DNA of 34,311 nt from Candidatus Acidiferrales bacterium. GTDB lineage: Bacteria; Acidobacteriota; Terriglobia; Acidiferrales; UBA7541. The DNA is taken from assembly GCA_030037435.1 (NCBI GenBank), contig JASHRI010000063.1, positions 1-34,311 on the forward strand. The letters run 5' to 3'. A program made the translations under genes and the position numbers. Below the pieces are notes generated by a model. It saw only the letters and a program-made list of their open reading frames with translations. It was not told where the DNA came from and did no database searches. Below, piece by piece: positions 5,135 through 26,541 of this stretch (the stretch's first letter is position 1; every line of letters begins with the position of its first letter).

Positions 5135-5731
5135 GTGAAGGAGTCAATTAGGATAGCAGGTTTGGTCGTTGTCTTTTGTTGGCTGATCGCGGTAGTCGGC
5201 GGAAGCCGATTACTGGCCTCGCAGCAGTCCGCTCAACAGCCCGCGCCCAAGGTGAAAGTGGGCACAGCCGTCGGCACCAAAGCCAACTCGCCCGCCCCTT
5301 CTGCGAACGCTCAGAACAAGAGTCACAAGACATCCGTCGGCAACGGTAAGCTCACCGTGAAGGCTTCGCAGCCCTCATCTTTCTGGACCGAACAAATCGA
5401 TTTGGAGGACGACGGCACCGCAGAGTCCACGGATTTCCTCTACGACGCCAATCGGGGAATCGTCTACGCATACCGGGAAGACGACTTTACGTGCCAGGAT
5501 GGCCAACCAGGTAGAGCAAAGATGATTGAAGCCGTTTATACCAGTGGCAATAAAGCCGGGAAGCCCGTGGGCTCGGGATCCTACGCGGTTAGCCTCAACG
5601 AAGGCCAGTGTGGCGCAAAGGCGGCAGGCGAGTACGGTTGCCGATTCGACGCGAATGGGAATCCAACAGAGTGCGGCCTAGCCACAGTGAACTATGCAAC
5701 CGGTGAGGTCGACATAGCCGTGGCTCAGTAG
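5135..5731 (+). CDS. Exported protein of unknown function, four cysteines
   Basis: The start is GTG at 5135, directly after a textbook ribosome site AGAGGAGG (5121-5128). The protein is 198 residues. It begins with a signal peptide (RIAGLVVVFCWLIAVVGGSRLLA, cleavage near residue 30) and a low-complexity Gln/Pro/Ala/Asn linker to about residue 70. A globular part follows (SFWTEQIDLEDDGTAESTDFLYDANRGIVYAYREDDFTC...) with four cysteines (FTCQDG, GQCGAK, YGCRF, TECGL), which could form two disulfides. The DDGTAE and DANG-like segments are acidic, but I do not claim a calcium site. I do not recognise a family. It lies 40 bp after the DUF202 gene and may be in the same operon. Confidence 0.65.
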   Translation: MKESIRIAGLVVVFCWLIAVVGGSRLLASQQSAQQPAPKVKVGTAVGTKANSPAPSANAQNKSHKTSVGNGKLTVKASQPSSFWTEQIDLEDDGTAESTDFLYDANRGIVYAYREDDFTCQDGQPGRAKMIEAVYTSGNKAGKPVGSGSYAVSLNEGQCGAKAAGEYGCRFDANGNPTECGLATVNYATGEVDIAVAQ

Positions 5732-6007: not shown

Positions 6008-6628
6008 ATGCGAGTTTTCAATCACGAACTTCCGAGATTTTACGACTTCGCTCTGGGCGGCCTATTGTTGATTGGCTTCCTGGCAGCAGGAGGATCGAAT
6101 AGTTTCGGCCAAGACCGATCAAAACCAGAGACCATCGAAGCCTCTGCGAACGGTACGGGCACACAGCTCGGCGCGGTCGTCGGCGTCACTTTGACCATAT
6201 ACGAGTACTCGACGCCGGCGGCCCGGCAAATATTGGTCCAGGCGTTCGAAAAGGGTCAAAACGCAGGGCTGGTGAATGCGCTAACGAAAATGAGGGCGGT
6301 GGGCCACATAGCCATCACCGGCACGCTTGGCTACGATGTGAGCTTTATCCGAATGTTGCCCACGCCGACTGGACGCAAAATTCGTTTTATAACCAATCGT
6401 CAGCTCCGCAATGCGGAAGTCTATTGGGACACGCAATCTCAATCGTACAACCTAACTGCGGGTGAGTTCGATCTAGACGATAGCGACAAGACGAAGAATA
6501 CGGGCGTCCTTTTTCCCGCGGCGCAGTTGGTGATCGATAAAGAAGGCAAAGTACAGTTCGACCTCAATCAAAATTCTTGGAAACTCACTGACGTCCTCGA
6601 TTGGAAAGGGACGCCAGGAGTCGACTAA
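6008..6628 (+). CDS. Exported protein of unknown function
   Basis: The ATG at 6008 is preferred over the track start at 5960 because GGAGAGG lies about 8 bases upstream and the protein then opens with a clean signal peptide (FYDFALGGLLLIGFLAAGGSNSFGQ, cleavage near residue 35). The mature part of the 206-residue product contains QLGAVVGVTLTIYEYSTPAARQILVQAFEKGQNAGLVNALTKMRAVGHIAITGTLGYDVSFIRMLP, TGRKIRFITNRQL and QLVIDKEGKVQFDLNQNSWKLTDV. I half-recall similar exported proteins of unknown function in acidobacteria, but assign no function. No cysteine or known catalytic motif is present. It stands alone, with more than 240 bp free on both sides. A 7-bp GCGAAGC/GCTTCGC hairpin (6636-6663) follows the stop without a T-run. 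Confidence 0.65.
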   Translation: MRVFNHELPRFYDFALGGLLLIGFLAAGGSNSFGQDRSKPETIEASANGTGTQLGAVVGVTLTIYEYSTPAARQILVQAFEKGQNAGLVNALTKMRAVGHIAITGTLGYDVSFIRMLPTPTGRKIRFITNRQLRNAEVYWDTQSQSYNLTAGEFDLDDSDKTKNTGVLFPAAQLVIDKEGKVQFDLNQNSWKLTDVLDWKGTPGVD

Positions 6629-8465: not shown

Positions 8466-8545
8466 GGAAGAGAGGTCCAGAGCTCTTCCTAGATCGGTCG
8501 ATGGCTCTCCCCGGCAGACGAGGTGATCTGTCTGCCCGGGAGAGC
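8466..8545 (+). other. Two tandem hairpins between the sulfatase and the methyltransferase
   Basis: The first hairpin is GGAAGAG (8466-8472) with CTCTTCC (8483-8489), starting 12 bp after the sulfatase stop. The second is GCTCTCCCCGGCAGA (8504-8518) with TCTGCCCGGGAGAGC (8531-8545), 14 of 15 pairs matched around a 12-base loop. Neither is followed by a run of T. They may end or stabilise the sulfatase mRNA. The second lies only 18 bases before the preferred methyltransferase start, so it could also control that gene. Confidence 0.55.
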
Positions 8546-8563
8546 TCCCGTTTGGCATCCACT

Positions 8564-9838
8564 ATGAGTACAAGAACGGAACTTCTTGCGACCGGCAGCG
8601 AGGTAGCAGACGAAGTCCGTCATTTCTACGATCGGTATCCGTACCCCCCGCCCGTCGATAACCTGGAAAAATATCAAGAACGCTGGCACGACCCTCAAAG
8701 GAAGCGCGCCGATTTTCATTTGTTTTGGCCGGACCGGGTTTTTCGAGAAGACCAATCGATCCTCGTCGCGGGGTGCGGGACGTCACAGGCGGCCAAGCAC
8801 GCGTTGCGATGGCCGGCGGCTCAAGTGATAGGCATCGATAGCAGCGCAACCAGCGTGCGCTACACCGAGGAGCTTAAGAAAAAGCACAATCTCAAGAATC
8901 TTGAAGTGCAACAGTGTGCGATTGAACGGATCAGCGACTTAGGCATGAGTTTCGATCAGATCGTTTGCACAGGGGTCCTTCATCATCTTGCGGATCCTGA
9001 TGCAGCTCTTACTGCTCTGCGCAGGGTGCTTAAGCCGGACGGCGCCATGCACCTGATGGTGTATGCGCCTTACGGACGCGCCGGCGTCTATATGATCCAA
9101 GAGTTCTGCCGCCGAATCGGTATCCATCCCAGCGATGGAGAGATTCGCGATCTAATGCGTGGTCTGGGCGCCTTGCCTGCAGGACACCCCTTACAAAGCC
9201 TGCTGACCCAAGCCCCGGAACTGCAAGATGAGCTGACGCTTGCCGATGCACTGTTGCACCCTAAGGATCGCGCATATTCCGTCCCGCAACTGTTGGAGCT
9301 TATCGAAGGAGCGGCGCTGCGTTTCGGCCGTTGGATTCGACAGGCACCTTACAGCGCTCAGTGCGGTGTTATGTCAAGGATCCCGCAGGCTGCCCGGATA
9401 ATGCGCCTGCCGCTGGAAGAACAGTATGCCGTCGCCGAACTATTTCGAGGCACGATGATCCGCCACAGCGCAGTTGTGTATCGAAATGATTGCGCCAGTC
9501 CCTCGCAGCCAATCGATTTCGCCGGAGACGGCTGGCTCGACTACGTGCCGATTCGAATGCCCGACACGATCTGCATTGAAGACGGCCTAGAGCCAGGGAC
9601 TGCGGCTGTTTTGATCAATCGAACTCACACGTATAGAGATTTATTTCTGGCTGTCGGGCAAATAGAAAAACGATTCTTCGACGCGATCGACGGGCAGCAT
9701 AAGATCGGCGATATCGTGGAACGAGCGCTCTCATCCTCTTGCCGAAGTGCACACCTTGACTTGGCGCGCAGTTTTTTCGAACGGCTCTGGTGGCACGATC
9801 TAGTTGTCTTCGAGACCGCGGCGCGAGCGACCGCTTAG
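8564..9838 (+). CDS. Class I SAM-dependent methyltransferase with C-terminal extension
   Basis: The protein is 424 residues from ATG 8564 (445 from the track start at 8501). The later start is preferred because 8501-8563 is largely taken up by a strong hairpin; neither start has a good ribosome site. The N-terminal EVRHFYDRYPYPPPVDNL is typical of one methyltransferase group. The Rossmann core follows at about 60-190: motif I ILVAGCGTSQAAKHAL, acidic IGIDSS, then FDQIVCTGVLHHLADPDAALTALRRVLKPDGAMHLMVYA. About 230 more residues follow, ending in a PqqD-like piece (EKRFFDAIDGQHKIGDIVERAL); that likeness is weak. The methyl acceptor is unknown. It may be transcribed separately from the sulfatase because of the intervening hairpins. 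Confidence 0.82.
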   Translation: MSTRTELLATGSEVADEVRHFYDRYPYPPPVDNLEKYQERWHDPQRKRADFHLFWPDRVFREDQSILVAGCGTSQAAKHALRWPAAQVIGIDSSATSVRYTEELKKKHNLKNLEVQQCAIERISDLGMSFDQIVCTGVLHHLADPDAALTALRRVLKPDGAMHLMVYAPYGRAGVYMIQEFCRRIGIHPSDGEIRDLMRGLGALPAGHPLQSLLTQAPELQDELTLADALLHPKDRAYSVPQLLELIEGAALRFGRWIRQAPYSAQCGVMSRIPQAARIMRLPLEEQYAVAELFRGTMIRHSAVVYRNDCASPSQPIDFAGDGWLDYVPIRMPDTICIEDGLEPGTAAVLINRTHTYRDLFLAVGQIEKRFFDAIDGQHKIGDIVERALSSSCRSAHLDLARSFFERLWWHDLVVFETAARATA

Positions 9839-9876
9839 AAGTACGCGAATTGCCGGGCGCCGTCCATGCGGAGAAG

Positions 9877-9905
9877 CGATTTCCACATTTCCTCGATTTC
9901 CACAT
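9877..9905. repeat. Direct repeat of CGATTTCCACAT
   Basis: The 12-mer CGATTTCCACAT occurs at 9877-9888 and again at 9894-9905, a 17-bp period, just after the methyltransferase stop. It is exact. It could be a small protein-binding site or chance; nothing else repeats it nearby. Confidence 0.5.
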
Positions 9906-10011
9906 CGAAAAACTACTTCGGTGTAATTGACTCCTTACGCGAGCAGAGTTACAACCGCTGCGTCAAATCGTTCTGATCATCTGAGTCTTGGGCGGCGCGG
10001 CAAGTGAAAGC

Positions 10012-10041
10012 TTGACGAGCTACCCAGGACATGGGTAGATC
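10012..10041 (+). promoter_or_regulatory. Putative promoter of the 6S-like RNA
   Basis: TTGACG (10012-10017) is a good -35 box. After 18 bases TAGATC (10036-10041) is a modest -10 box. Transcription would start near 10048-10050, where the folded RNA begins. The agreement with the RNA's predicted 5' end is the main support. Confidence 0.45.
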
Positions 10042-10047
10042 GAACGG

Positions 10048-10240
10048 CCTTGATAAAGTTCCGAATGTTGCAGCAGCACGGCGAGTCCTGAGGTTTGAAC
10101 TCGCGGTGGGTCCAAGCGTCTTCGTCGAGCATGCTTGGCGTAGTGACGCGGGTCCGAGCCGCGGGCTGGCCCTTGGAGAGTTGTCGTGGCCGGTTTCTCC
10201 GGCTAACCCCGGCTGAATCCTTGGCAGCTGTTTATTTTCG
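10048..10240 (+). ncRNA. ssrS: Candidate 6S RNA (RNA polymerase-binding regulatory RNA)
   Basis: This stretch lacks a credible ORF but folds by eye into one long rod of about 190 nt. Outer stem pieces are ATAAA/TTTAT (10053-10057 with 10231-10235), CCGA/TTGG (10061-10064 with 10221-10224) and TT-CAGC/GCTGAA. An 8-bp stem CACGGCGA/TTGTCGTG (10077-10084 with 10181-10188) leads to a symmetric 15x15-nt open bubble (10085-10099 and 10166-10180). A terminal arm follows: CTCGCGG/CCGCGGG (10100-10106 with 10159-10165) and GCGTC/GACGC (10116-10120 with 10145-10149). A small GCCGG/CCGGC hairpin lies in the 3' strand. Closing stem, large central bubble and terminal arm form the 6S architecture that mimics an open promoter to bind housekeeping holoenzyme. 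AGTCCTGAG and GAGCATGCT resemble the E. coli AGUCCCCUGAG and GAGCAUGCU. The length fits (about 185 nt), and a promoter and terminator flank it. No covariance search was possible. Confidence 0.65.
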
Positions 10241-10253
10241 AGACTGAAGGGAA

Positions 10254-10282
10254 GGGGCGAGCAATCGCCCCTTTTCTTTTTT
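10254..10282 (+). terminator. Intrinsic terminator after the 6S-like RNA
   Basis: GGGGCGA (10254-10260), loop GCAA, TCGCCCC (10265-10271), then TTTTCTTTTTT. A perfect 7-bp GC-rich stem with a GCAA tetraloop and a strong T-tract. No protein gene precedes it closely on this strand (the last stop is over 400 bp upstream), so it most likely ends a non-coding transcript. Confidence 0.9.
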
Positions 10283-10419
10283 GCACCCACCAATCTTCGC
10301 ATTGCGCTCTCAAGCCTCCGTTTCGGACGGGCAATCTGCTTAGAGCCTCTTGGAACAAACCGCCCAGCTTTTGCGTTCCTCACTCAGCAGGAATTTCGCA
10401 ACTTGCTGGGAGACGAAGC

Positions 10420-11274
10420 ATGACGGAGCCGCGCGTCAAGCATCCAGTATTGCTCTATCTTGTGATCGCCTGCATTCCACCCTGGATTGGCTGGTCGCTG
10501 ATGGCTTTTGGCGTGATTCCCCAGAACTCGCCTTGGTCTGGCCCGATATTCCTGACCGGTGAGGCAGTCAGCATCGCTGGCCTTGCCGTGACCTTCATGA
10601 CACAGGGCAGCCAAGGCGTTTTGAGTCTGCTGAAACAGGCAGTGCGCGCCGCCGTGCCAATCCAATGGTGGCTGTATGCACTGCTCCTTCCACCGTCTTG
10701 TTCCGTTGCCACCGGAATTCTTTATCTAATGCTTCATGGCAAGCCAATCGTTTTCAAGCCGTCTGCTTTCCTCCAGGTCGGTACGCCGGCCCTGCTCGTG
10801 CCGTTTCTATTCGGTCCCTTAGGCGAAGAATTCGGCTGGCGCGGATTCTTACTTCCACGATTCGTCAGAAAATTCTCCGCGGTCCCGGCGTGCTTTTTCG
10901 TTGGCATCATCTGGGCGGTTTGGCATTGGCCGCTCTACTACAAGGCAATCGCCAAGTCGCCGGCCGAGGAAATCTTCTTTATGTTGGCAAACATCACAGG
11001 GTTGAGTTTTCTTCTCGGGGTTGTGTACCTGCGTACGAACAGCCTTCTGTTTTCCATGCTGATGCACTGGAGCAGCAACGCAACGCTGGTTCTTGTGGGA
11101 GGGCTTCTGCCCGACCTTCCCAGCAATGCACTGAATGACATCGCGTTCAGATGGTGCGGGCTGGGCGTGCTAACGCTATGTGTCGCCGCGGTGATCCCGC
11201 TACTGCTGCGCACGGATCGTCGTAGTCCACCGATTATTCAAACGGCGGAATTCCCCGCTGCCGCCGTTGACTAA
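10420..11274 (+). CDS. CPBP family intramembrane metalloprotease
   Basis: This is a 284-residue polytopic membrane protein of the CAAX-protease/bacteriocin-processing (Abi) family. The catalytic signatures are present in order: EEFGWRGFLLPRF (Glu136-Glu137...Arg141, the EExxxR motif), FVGIIWAVWHWPLYY (FxxxxxxxxH with His169) and a late HWSSNATL (HxxxN). GGGAG about 8 bases before the ATG supports the start. Members cleave within or near the membrane and are linked to protein processing, immunity to peptides or stress, but the substrate here is unknown. The gene is preceded by the 6S-like RNA and its terminator, so it has its own transcript. The next gene (SDR) starts 62 bp later. Confidence 0.88.
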   Translation: MTEPRVKHPVLLYLVIACIPPWIGWSLMAFGVIPQNSPWSGPIFLTGEAVSIAGLAVTFMTQGSQGVLSLLKQAVRAAVPIQWWLYALLLPPSCSVATGILYLMLHGKPIVFKPSAFLQVGTPALLVPFLFGPLGEEFGWRGFLLPRFVRKFSAVPACFFVGIIWAVWHWPLYYKAIAKSPAEEIFFMLANITGLSFLLGVVYLRTNSLLFSMLMHWSSNATLVLVGGLLPDLPSNALNDIAFRWCGLGVLTLCVAAVIPLLLRTDRRSPPIIQTAEFPAAAVD

Positions 11275-25311: not shown

Positions 25312-25541
25312 GCGCCGACCACAACCTCCGTGTAGAATTGGAATCGAATTCTCCGACCTCCGCGGCCTAATGGAGAGAAATCCTACGGCGCGAGAGGCGA
25401 CGCCCGGCTGGTAGATCGCCGGGCTGAGGGTTCGGGTGGAAACGCCCGGGCCTCCCATTTGGAAAGGGGAAATGTGCGGCGCGCTAATGGCTCGCCGATA
25501 TTGTGCCCAAGTTCAAATGTGGACTTGGGCTTTTTTGTTTT
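25312..25541 (+). promoter_or_regulatory. Molybdenum-cofactor-type (Moco) riboswitch with expression platform, upstream of moaA
   Basis: The leader folds into nested stems. GCGCCG (25312-25317) pairs with CGGCGC (25477-25482) as the closing stem. A CCG-TAG/CTACGG stem encloses TTCTCC/GGAGAGAA. A 7-bp GCCCGGC/GCCGGGC hairpin follows (25402-25424), then a long arm capped by a GAAA tetraloop (25439-25442) with GGGCCTCCC at its 3' side. The segment GGAAAGGGGAAATG follows. A long multi-stem RNA with a GNRA-capped arm directly before moaA fits the Moco RNA motif as I remember it, and the final element is an intrinsic terminator 20 bp before the moaA ATG. Binding of cofactor would presumably end transcription early. 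Family assignment was not checked by a covariance model. Confidence 0.68.
25505..25541 (+). terminator. Intrinsic terminator (attenuator) just before moaA
   Basis: GCCCAAGTTC (25505-25514), loop AAATGT, GGACTTGGGC (25521-25530), then TTTTTTGTTTT. A 10-bp stem with a T-tract, ending 20 bp before the moaA start and long after the previous gene. This placement points to regulated attenuation rather than the end of the ATPase gene. Confidence 0.88.
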
Positions 25542-25560: not shown

Positions 25561-26541
25561 ATGCCGCTCATCGACAAATTCGGCCGTCAAATCACCGATC
25601 TGCGGATTTCGGTTACGGACCGCTGCAATTTCCGTTGCGTGTATTGCCGCTCGGCGCGTCCGGAACATCACATGCCGTCGGACGATCTGCTCTCGTGGGA
25701 CGAACATGAGCGCCTGGTGAAAATTCTGGTCGCCATGGGCATTCGCAAAGTCCGCGTGACGGGCGGTGAGCCGCTGGTCCGTGCGGGCGTTGAGGATTTC
25801 ATTGCGCGGCTGAAAGCACTTGGCGTCAGAGATCTTTCAATGACCACCAACGGCCACCTGCTCGCCGAGCGTTGCGACCGCCTGGTGGCGGCTGGCATGG
25901 ACCGCATCAACATCAGCCTCGACTCGCTCGACCGCGAAAAGTTTGAGCGCGTCACGCGCACAAAGGCCTTTGACCAAGTAATCGCAGGCATTGACGCGGC
26001 CCAGGCCTCGCGGCTGCGCCCGGTAAAGATCAATGCTGTCCTCGTTCGCGGGCTCAATGACGACGAAGTAGAAGCTTTCGCCGCCTTCGCTCGCGACCGC
26101 AATCTGATCATGCGCTTTATCGAGTTCATGCCGCTCGACGCAGACCGCGCTTGGACGCGAGACATGGTCGTCACCGGCGCTGAGGTGCATCGTCGCATCT
26201 CGGAACGCTGGCCGCTCGTTCCCGTGGTCCACGAACGCAGTGAAACGGCGCGCAAATATCGGTTCGCCGATGGACGCGGTGAAATCGGACTGATCTCTCC
26301 CGTCTCGCAGCCTTTTTGCGGATTCTGCTCGCGCATCCGGCTCACGGCCGATGGGAAACTTCGCACCTGCCTCTTCAGCAAGGAGGATCACGATTTGAAA
26401 TCGTTACTGCGCGGCGGCGCGACCGATCGTGAAATTGGCGACGAGATTCTTTCGATCGTCTCGGAAAAGGAAAAGGGTCACCGCATCAACGAGCCAGGCT
26501 TCATGCCGCCATCTCGCACGATGGTGTCCATCGGCGGATGA
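25561..26541 (+). CDS. moaA: GTP 3',8-cyclase MoaA
   Basis: This radical-SAM enzyme converts GTP to 3',8-cyclo-7,8-dihydro-GTP, the first step of molybdenum cofactor synthesis. The 326-residue protein has the radical SAM cluster CNFRCVYC (Cys22, 26, 29), the SAM-binding TGGEPLVR, the TMTTNGHLL and NISLDSLDREKF segments, and the C-terminal cluster C253-GFC256 with the third Cys in LRTC270. It ends in GG, as MoaA should. The start is standard for the family (MPLIDKFGRQITDLRISVTDRCN); the ribosome site is poor (AGGGG 14 bases upstream). No other moa/moe gene is in the window. It is preceded by the riboswitch-like leader. Confidence 0.97.
   Translation: MPLIDKFGRQITDLRISVTDRCNFRCVYCRSARPEHHMPSDDLLSWDEHERLVKILVAMGIRKVRVTGGEPLVRAGVEDFIARLKALGVRDLSMTTNGHLLAERCDRLVAAGMDRINISLDSLDREKFERVTRTKAFDQVIAGIDAAQASRLRPVKINAVLVRGLNDDEVEAFAAFARDRNLIMRFIEFMPLDADRAWTRDMVVTGAEVHRRISERWPLVPVVHERSETARKYRFADGRGEIGLISPVSQPFCGFCSRIRLTADGKLRTCLFSKEDHDLKSLLRGGATDREIGDEILSIVSEKEKGHRINEPGFMPPSRTMVSIGG

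Follow-up and report, generated by a model that had tools for sequence, protein, structure and literature searches.

A probable gene for a structured non-coding RNA, conserved together with its upstream repeats in one Candidatus Acidiferrales genus

The window (the whole stretch of DNA analyzed, 34,311 nucleotides from a Candidatus Acidiferrales bacterium, an acidobacterium of soil) contains a gap at 9839-10419, with a methyltransferase gene (8501-9838) on one side and a gene for a CPBP-type (Rce1-like) protease (10420-11274) on the other. Both identities were confirmed by Pfam. The features recognized in the gap are listed in Table 1. When the window was searched with Rfam at gathering scores, the sole match was a molybdenum/tungsten cofactor (Moco) riboswitch (RF01055, 59.6 bits) at 25339-25485 on the + strand, located immediately before the gene for a MoaA-like radical SAM protein (25561-26541; Pfam).

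Table 1. Coordinates of the features of the predicted RNA gene and its control region (window positions)
Feature	Position	Strand	Basis
Two direct repeats ATTTCCACA, putative operator/activator site	9879-9887 and 9896-9904	+	Conserved upstream of the RNA in 4/4 carriers
Promoter-like element TTGACT-17-TACAAC	-35, 9927-9932; -10, 9950-9955	+	Conservation of a consensus-like element only
5' hairpin (domain I), 93 nt	9962-10054	+	Fold, three- and four-sequence consensus, covariance model R1
Branched domain, 189 nt: rod II and hairpin III on an outer stem	10057-10245	+	Fold
Rod II	10077-10188	+	Fold; mostly deleted in G013
Hairpin III	10189-10225	+	Fold; 3 pairs changed on both sides
Intrinsic terminator, GCAA (GNRA) tetraloop and T tail	10246-10283	+	Stem nearly invariant in three carriers

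A sequence-only reading of the same DNA had placed in the gap a segment of stable structure with an intrinsic terminator at its end, and such a segment was indeed present. The fold of 10040-10285 had a z-score of -4.2, with 0 of 200 shuffles being as stable, and that of the full segment (9958-10284) reached -6.1. When the terminator was excluded (9962-10245), the values were -5.0 on the + strand and -2.9 on the - strand, and the three full homologues yielded -6.1, -6.1, and -6.8. The shape described earlier had to be revised. The supposed rod of ~190 nt is a branched domain, in which a rod and a hairpin share a common stem, and the symmetric 15x15 bubble is missing from the minimum-energy fold, where the biggest internal loop is 6x5. 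The 5' hairpin had been overlooked, and it encloses the promoter proposed at the time. The terminator escaped the automated scan, presumably because its stem is long and rich in G-U pairs.

Homologues were found by BLAST in 3 of the 19 other genomes of the genus (G015, G012, and G013; Candidatus Acidiferrales MAGs, Acidobacteriota). Identity to the window was 72-73% in G015, ~70% in G012, and 74-76% over 157 nt in G013. The four carriers are draft assemblies, incomplete, the three relatives being MAGs. The conserved block extends from 9872-9879 to 10285 and is bounded by the ATTTCCACA repeats and the terminator. As an independent homology test, a model built from the three relatives only, with the window left out (R2), was used: it matched the window at 10183-10282 with 74.1 bits (E 5e-16 for the window and 7e-14 for the genome), and its matches elsewhere (below ~30 bits) were terminator-like chance hits in other genomes. 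Covariance model R1, covering the 5' domain, scored 101-119 bits in the four carriers, the same four that were used to build it, and when R1 was run on 95 genomes from the order and 399 from the class, it returned the four carriers only. No homologue was found in 379 other genomes sampled from the class, and an exact-pattern scan of genome contigs retrieved nothing beyond the three known relatives. The RNA is present in a single copy per carrier genome. In G013, a loss of ~120 nt has removed most of rod II, whereas both domain I and hairpin III are kept, as are the repeats and the terminator. This shortened copy (G013:C264 (L036), 6040-6325) is either a minimal version that still functions or a gene in decay; with most of the rod missing and a weak -35, it may be decaying. 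At another site, upstream of a carbonic-anhydrase-like gene (G015:C19 (L037), ~5193-5373), short stretches were observed that recur with 85-94% identity at several places in G004 and G019, and these represent either a repeat dispersed in the genomes or a further small RNA or operator.

The structure was also examined for compensatory changes in the relatives, and these were present. Under the consensus structure, 91.9% of cells were paired vs 36-44% for slid structures (three sequences), and the outer stem of the branched domain had 97.8% of its cells paired. Pairs with both sides changed numbered 11, compared to 6.4 ± 1.6 in shuffles (three sequences), and the terminator stem in G013 carried a compensatory C-G to U-A change. 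Further pair types were in no excess over shuffles (185/500). The covariation support, coming from only three or four sequences, is modest.

In the control region, the pair TTTCCACAN{8,10}TTTCCACA occurred once per carrier, always before the RNA, and in 0 of 16 other genomes of the genus. In the promoter-like element, GAGTTACAA was invariant in 4/4 homologues and TTGACT was found in 3/4, the -35 being weaker in G013. The transcription start predicted from this element would lie at ~9962. The promoter proposed earlier, TTGACG (10013)/TAGATC (10035), is inside the conserved 5' hairpin, where relatives read TTAACG and CTGGCG, and it was abandoned. A strict sigma-70 promoter scan detected neither of the two elements. 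Because the conserved block holds the promoter-like element, the 5' hairpin, the branched domain, and the terminator, the RNA is predicted to be ~320 nt long; the conserved unit starts further upstream than the previously suggested start at ~10048, and the size of 190-235 nt was too small.

The 6S RNA architecture claimed in the sequence-only reading was not borne out. Even with E relaxed to 10, the Rfam 6S model RF00013 had no match in 9830-10430, and it had none in two homologues at E 5. As a positive control, the 6S RNA of the same genome was detected (G000:C14 (L039), 949-1142; 55.4 bits, gathering score 46.4), and it is located on a contig other than that of the window RNA, one ORF upstream of dnaA. 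With no match in 9830-10430 or in the two homologues and a genuine 6S RNA elsewhere in the genome, 6S membership was rejected. The window RNA has in common with 6S/SsrS RNA that it is free-standing and non-coding, with a long interrupted rod and a terminator, but it differs in the missing covariance-model match, the lack of a central bubble, the length of ~320 nt, and the extra 5' hairpin. Might it be a second, 6S-2-like RNA that would bind RNA polymerase through open-promoter mimicry? The size class of domain II-III (189 nt), the interrupted rod, and the terminator speak for this, as does the occurrence of two 6S RNAs in some bacteria, for example B. subtilis, and the 6S RNA already present on the other contig does not alone rule out a second copy. 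However, a second 6S RNA is highly improbable, because the model match and the large central bubble are missing and the rod is largely gone in one homologue (G013); moreover, the 93-nt 5' hairpin precedes the domain.

The RNA could be a leader or attenuator of the gene that follows it, in the window the CPBP protease gene at 10420, since that gene has the same orientation and the RNA ends in a terminator. This is very unlikely: each carrier has a different downstream gene, and the RNA retains a terminator of its own, with ~137 nt between it and the next start codon in the window. Neighbor genes vary among the four carriers in general, the exception being shared but rearranged neighbors in G012 and G015. 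That a short protein is encoded on either strand is barely credible. Two ORFs in the window, one of 61 aa (+) and one of 144 aa (-), remain open, but Pfam matched neither, and their frames shift or stop in the homologues, where the ORFs are not conserved; the earlier statement that no protein gene explains the terminator was upheld. A small mobile or island-borne cassette, with the RNA as cargo or as a mobile-element remnant, is rather doubtful. In its favor, the carriers are scattered on the dnaA tree instead of forming one clade (four changes are required and a single-clade grouping is rejected, the partial, long-branch dnaA of G012 weighing heavily), flanking genes are unshared, and DNA searches with the flanking protein genes of the window matched nothing in the 19 further genomes of the genus. 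However, there is one copy per genome, no terminal repeats or target duplication were noticed, multiple losses would yield the same pattern, and the assemblies are incomplete. Phages, plasmids, and viral contigs were searched with no match, and an origin of the RNA from any of these was rejected. Given the weight of the G012 dnaA and the incomplete assemblies, the patchy carrier pattern may stem from either transfer or repeated loss.

Other known families were also considered. Matches to other Rfam families were merely chance-level terminator matches. BjrC68 sRNA (RF02353), a family known from Bradyrhizobiaceae, matched the 3' hairpin/terminator part of three homologues weakly (15-17 bits, gathering score 39), and the match was mostly to a generic terminator. 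Orphan clade-specific structured RNAs from intergenic regions have been catalogued (PMC2864571), and the window RNA is likewise intergenic, with a conserved structure, no fixed neighbor, and no assigned function, but it is without a family in Rfam 15.

The repeats provide a lead to a possible regulator. In the upstream regions of dnaA (up to 500 bp each, 15 genomes, 7.3 kb), the two dominant DnaA-box-like words were ATTTCCACA (23 copies) and TTTTCCACA (25 copies). Because ATTTCCACA is dominant among such words, DnaA is a candidate regulator. The TTTTCCACA/ATTTCCACA box cluster upstream of dnaA in G000:C14 (L039) 2062-2430 looks like a replication origin. The gap between the paired ATTTCCACA 9-mers upstream of the RNA is 8 bp, whereas E. 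coli DnaA prefers box pairs spaced by 2-3 bp (PMC11317965). Because of this unlike spacing, DnaA control stays only a lead, and DnaA as the binder of the paired sites is speculative. We regard as fairly improbable the wider proposal that the ATTTCCACA repeats are DnaA boxes tying RNA synthesis to the replication initiator, which would make the RNA a new cell-cycle-coupled family of Acidobacteriota, spreading or being lost as a self-contained unit. MraZ-type boxes were ruled out as the identity of the repeats by inspection of the spacing.

Taken as a gene of its own, the locus probably encodes an independent, ~320-nt structured non-coding RNA (~9962-10282, +) of a family outside Rfam 15, which in the genomes searched is limited to some species within a single Candidatus Acidiferrales genus. 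The self-contained non-coding RNA gene of the sequence-only reading is backed by the homologues, the covariation, the terminator, and the non-conserved neighbors. As judged from sequence comparison, on which its status as an RNA gene rests, the discrete unit that runs from the operator-like repeats and the promoter-like element through the 5' hairpin and the branched domain to the terminator is conserved as one piece amid varying flanking genes. The RNA would be transcribed from ~9962 and end at the terminator, its expression would be set by a protein binding the two ATTTCCACA repeats, and it may act in trans as a regulator, by pairing with mRNA or by binding protein.

The RNA is a previously undescribed family of a known general kind, seen to date in four genomes, all from a single genus. 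Few RNAs have been characterized in this phylum, to which it contributes a structured RNA family that has a clear regulatory region, and it illustrates that a 6S-like look can arise from the fold alone. Its patchy occurrence without fixed neighbors, together with the paired operator-like site that is unique to it, offers handles for finding its regulator and its role.
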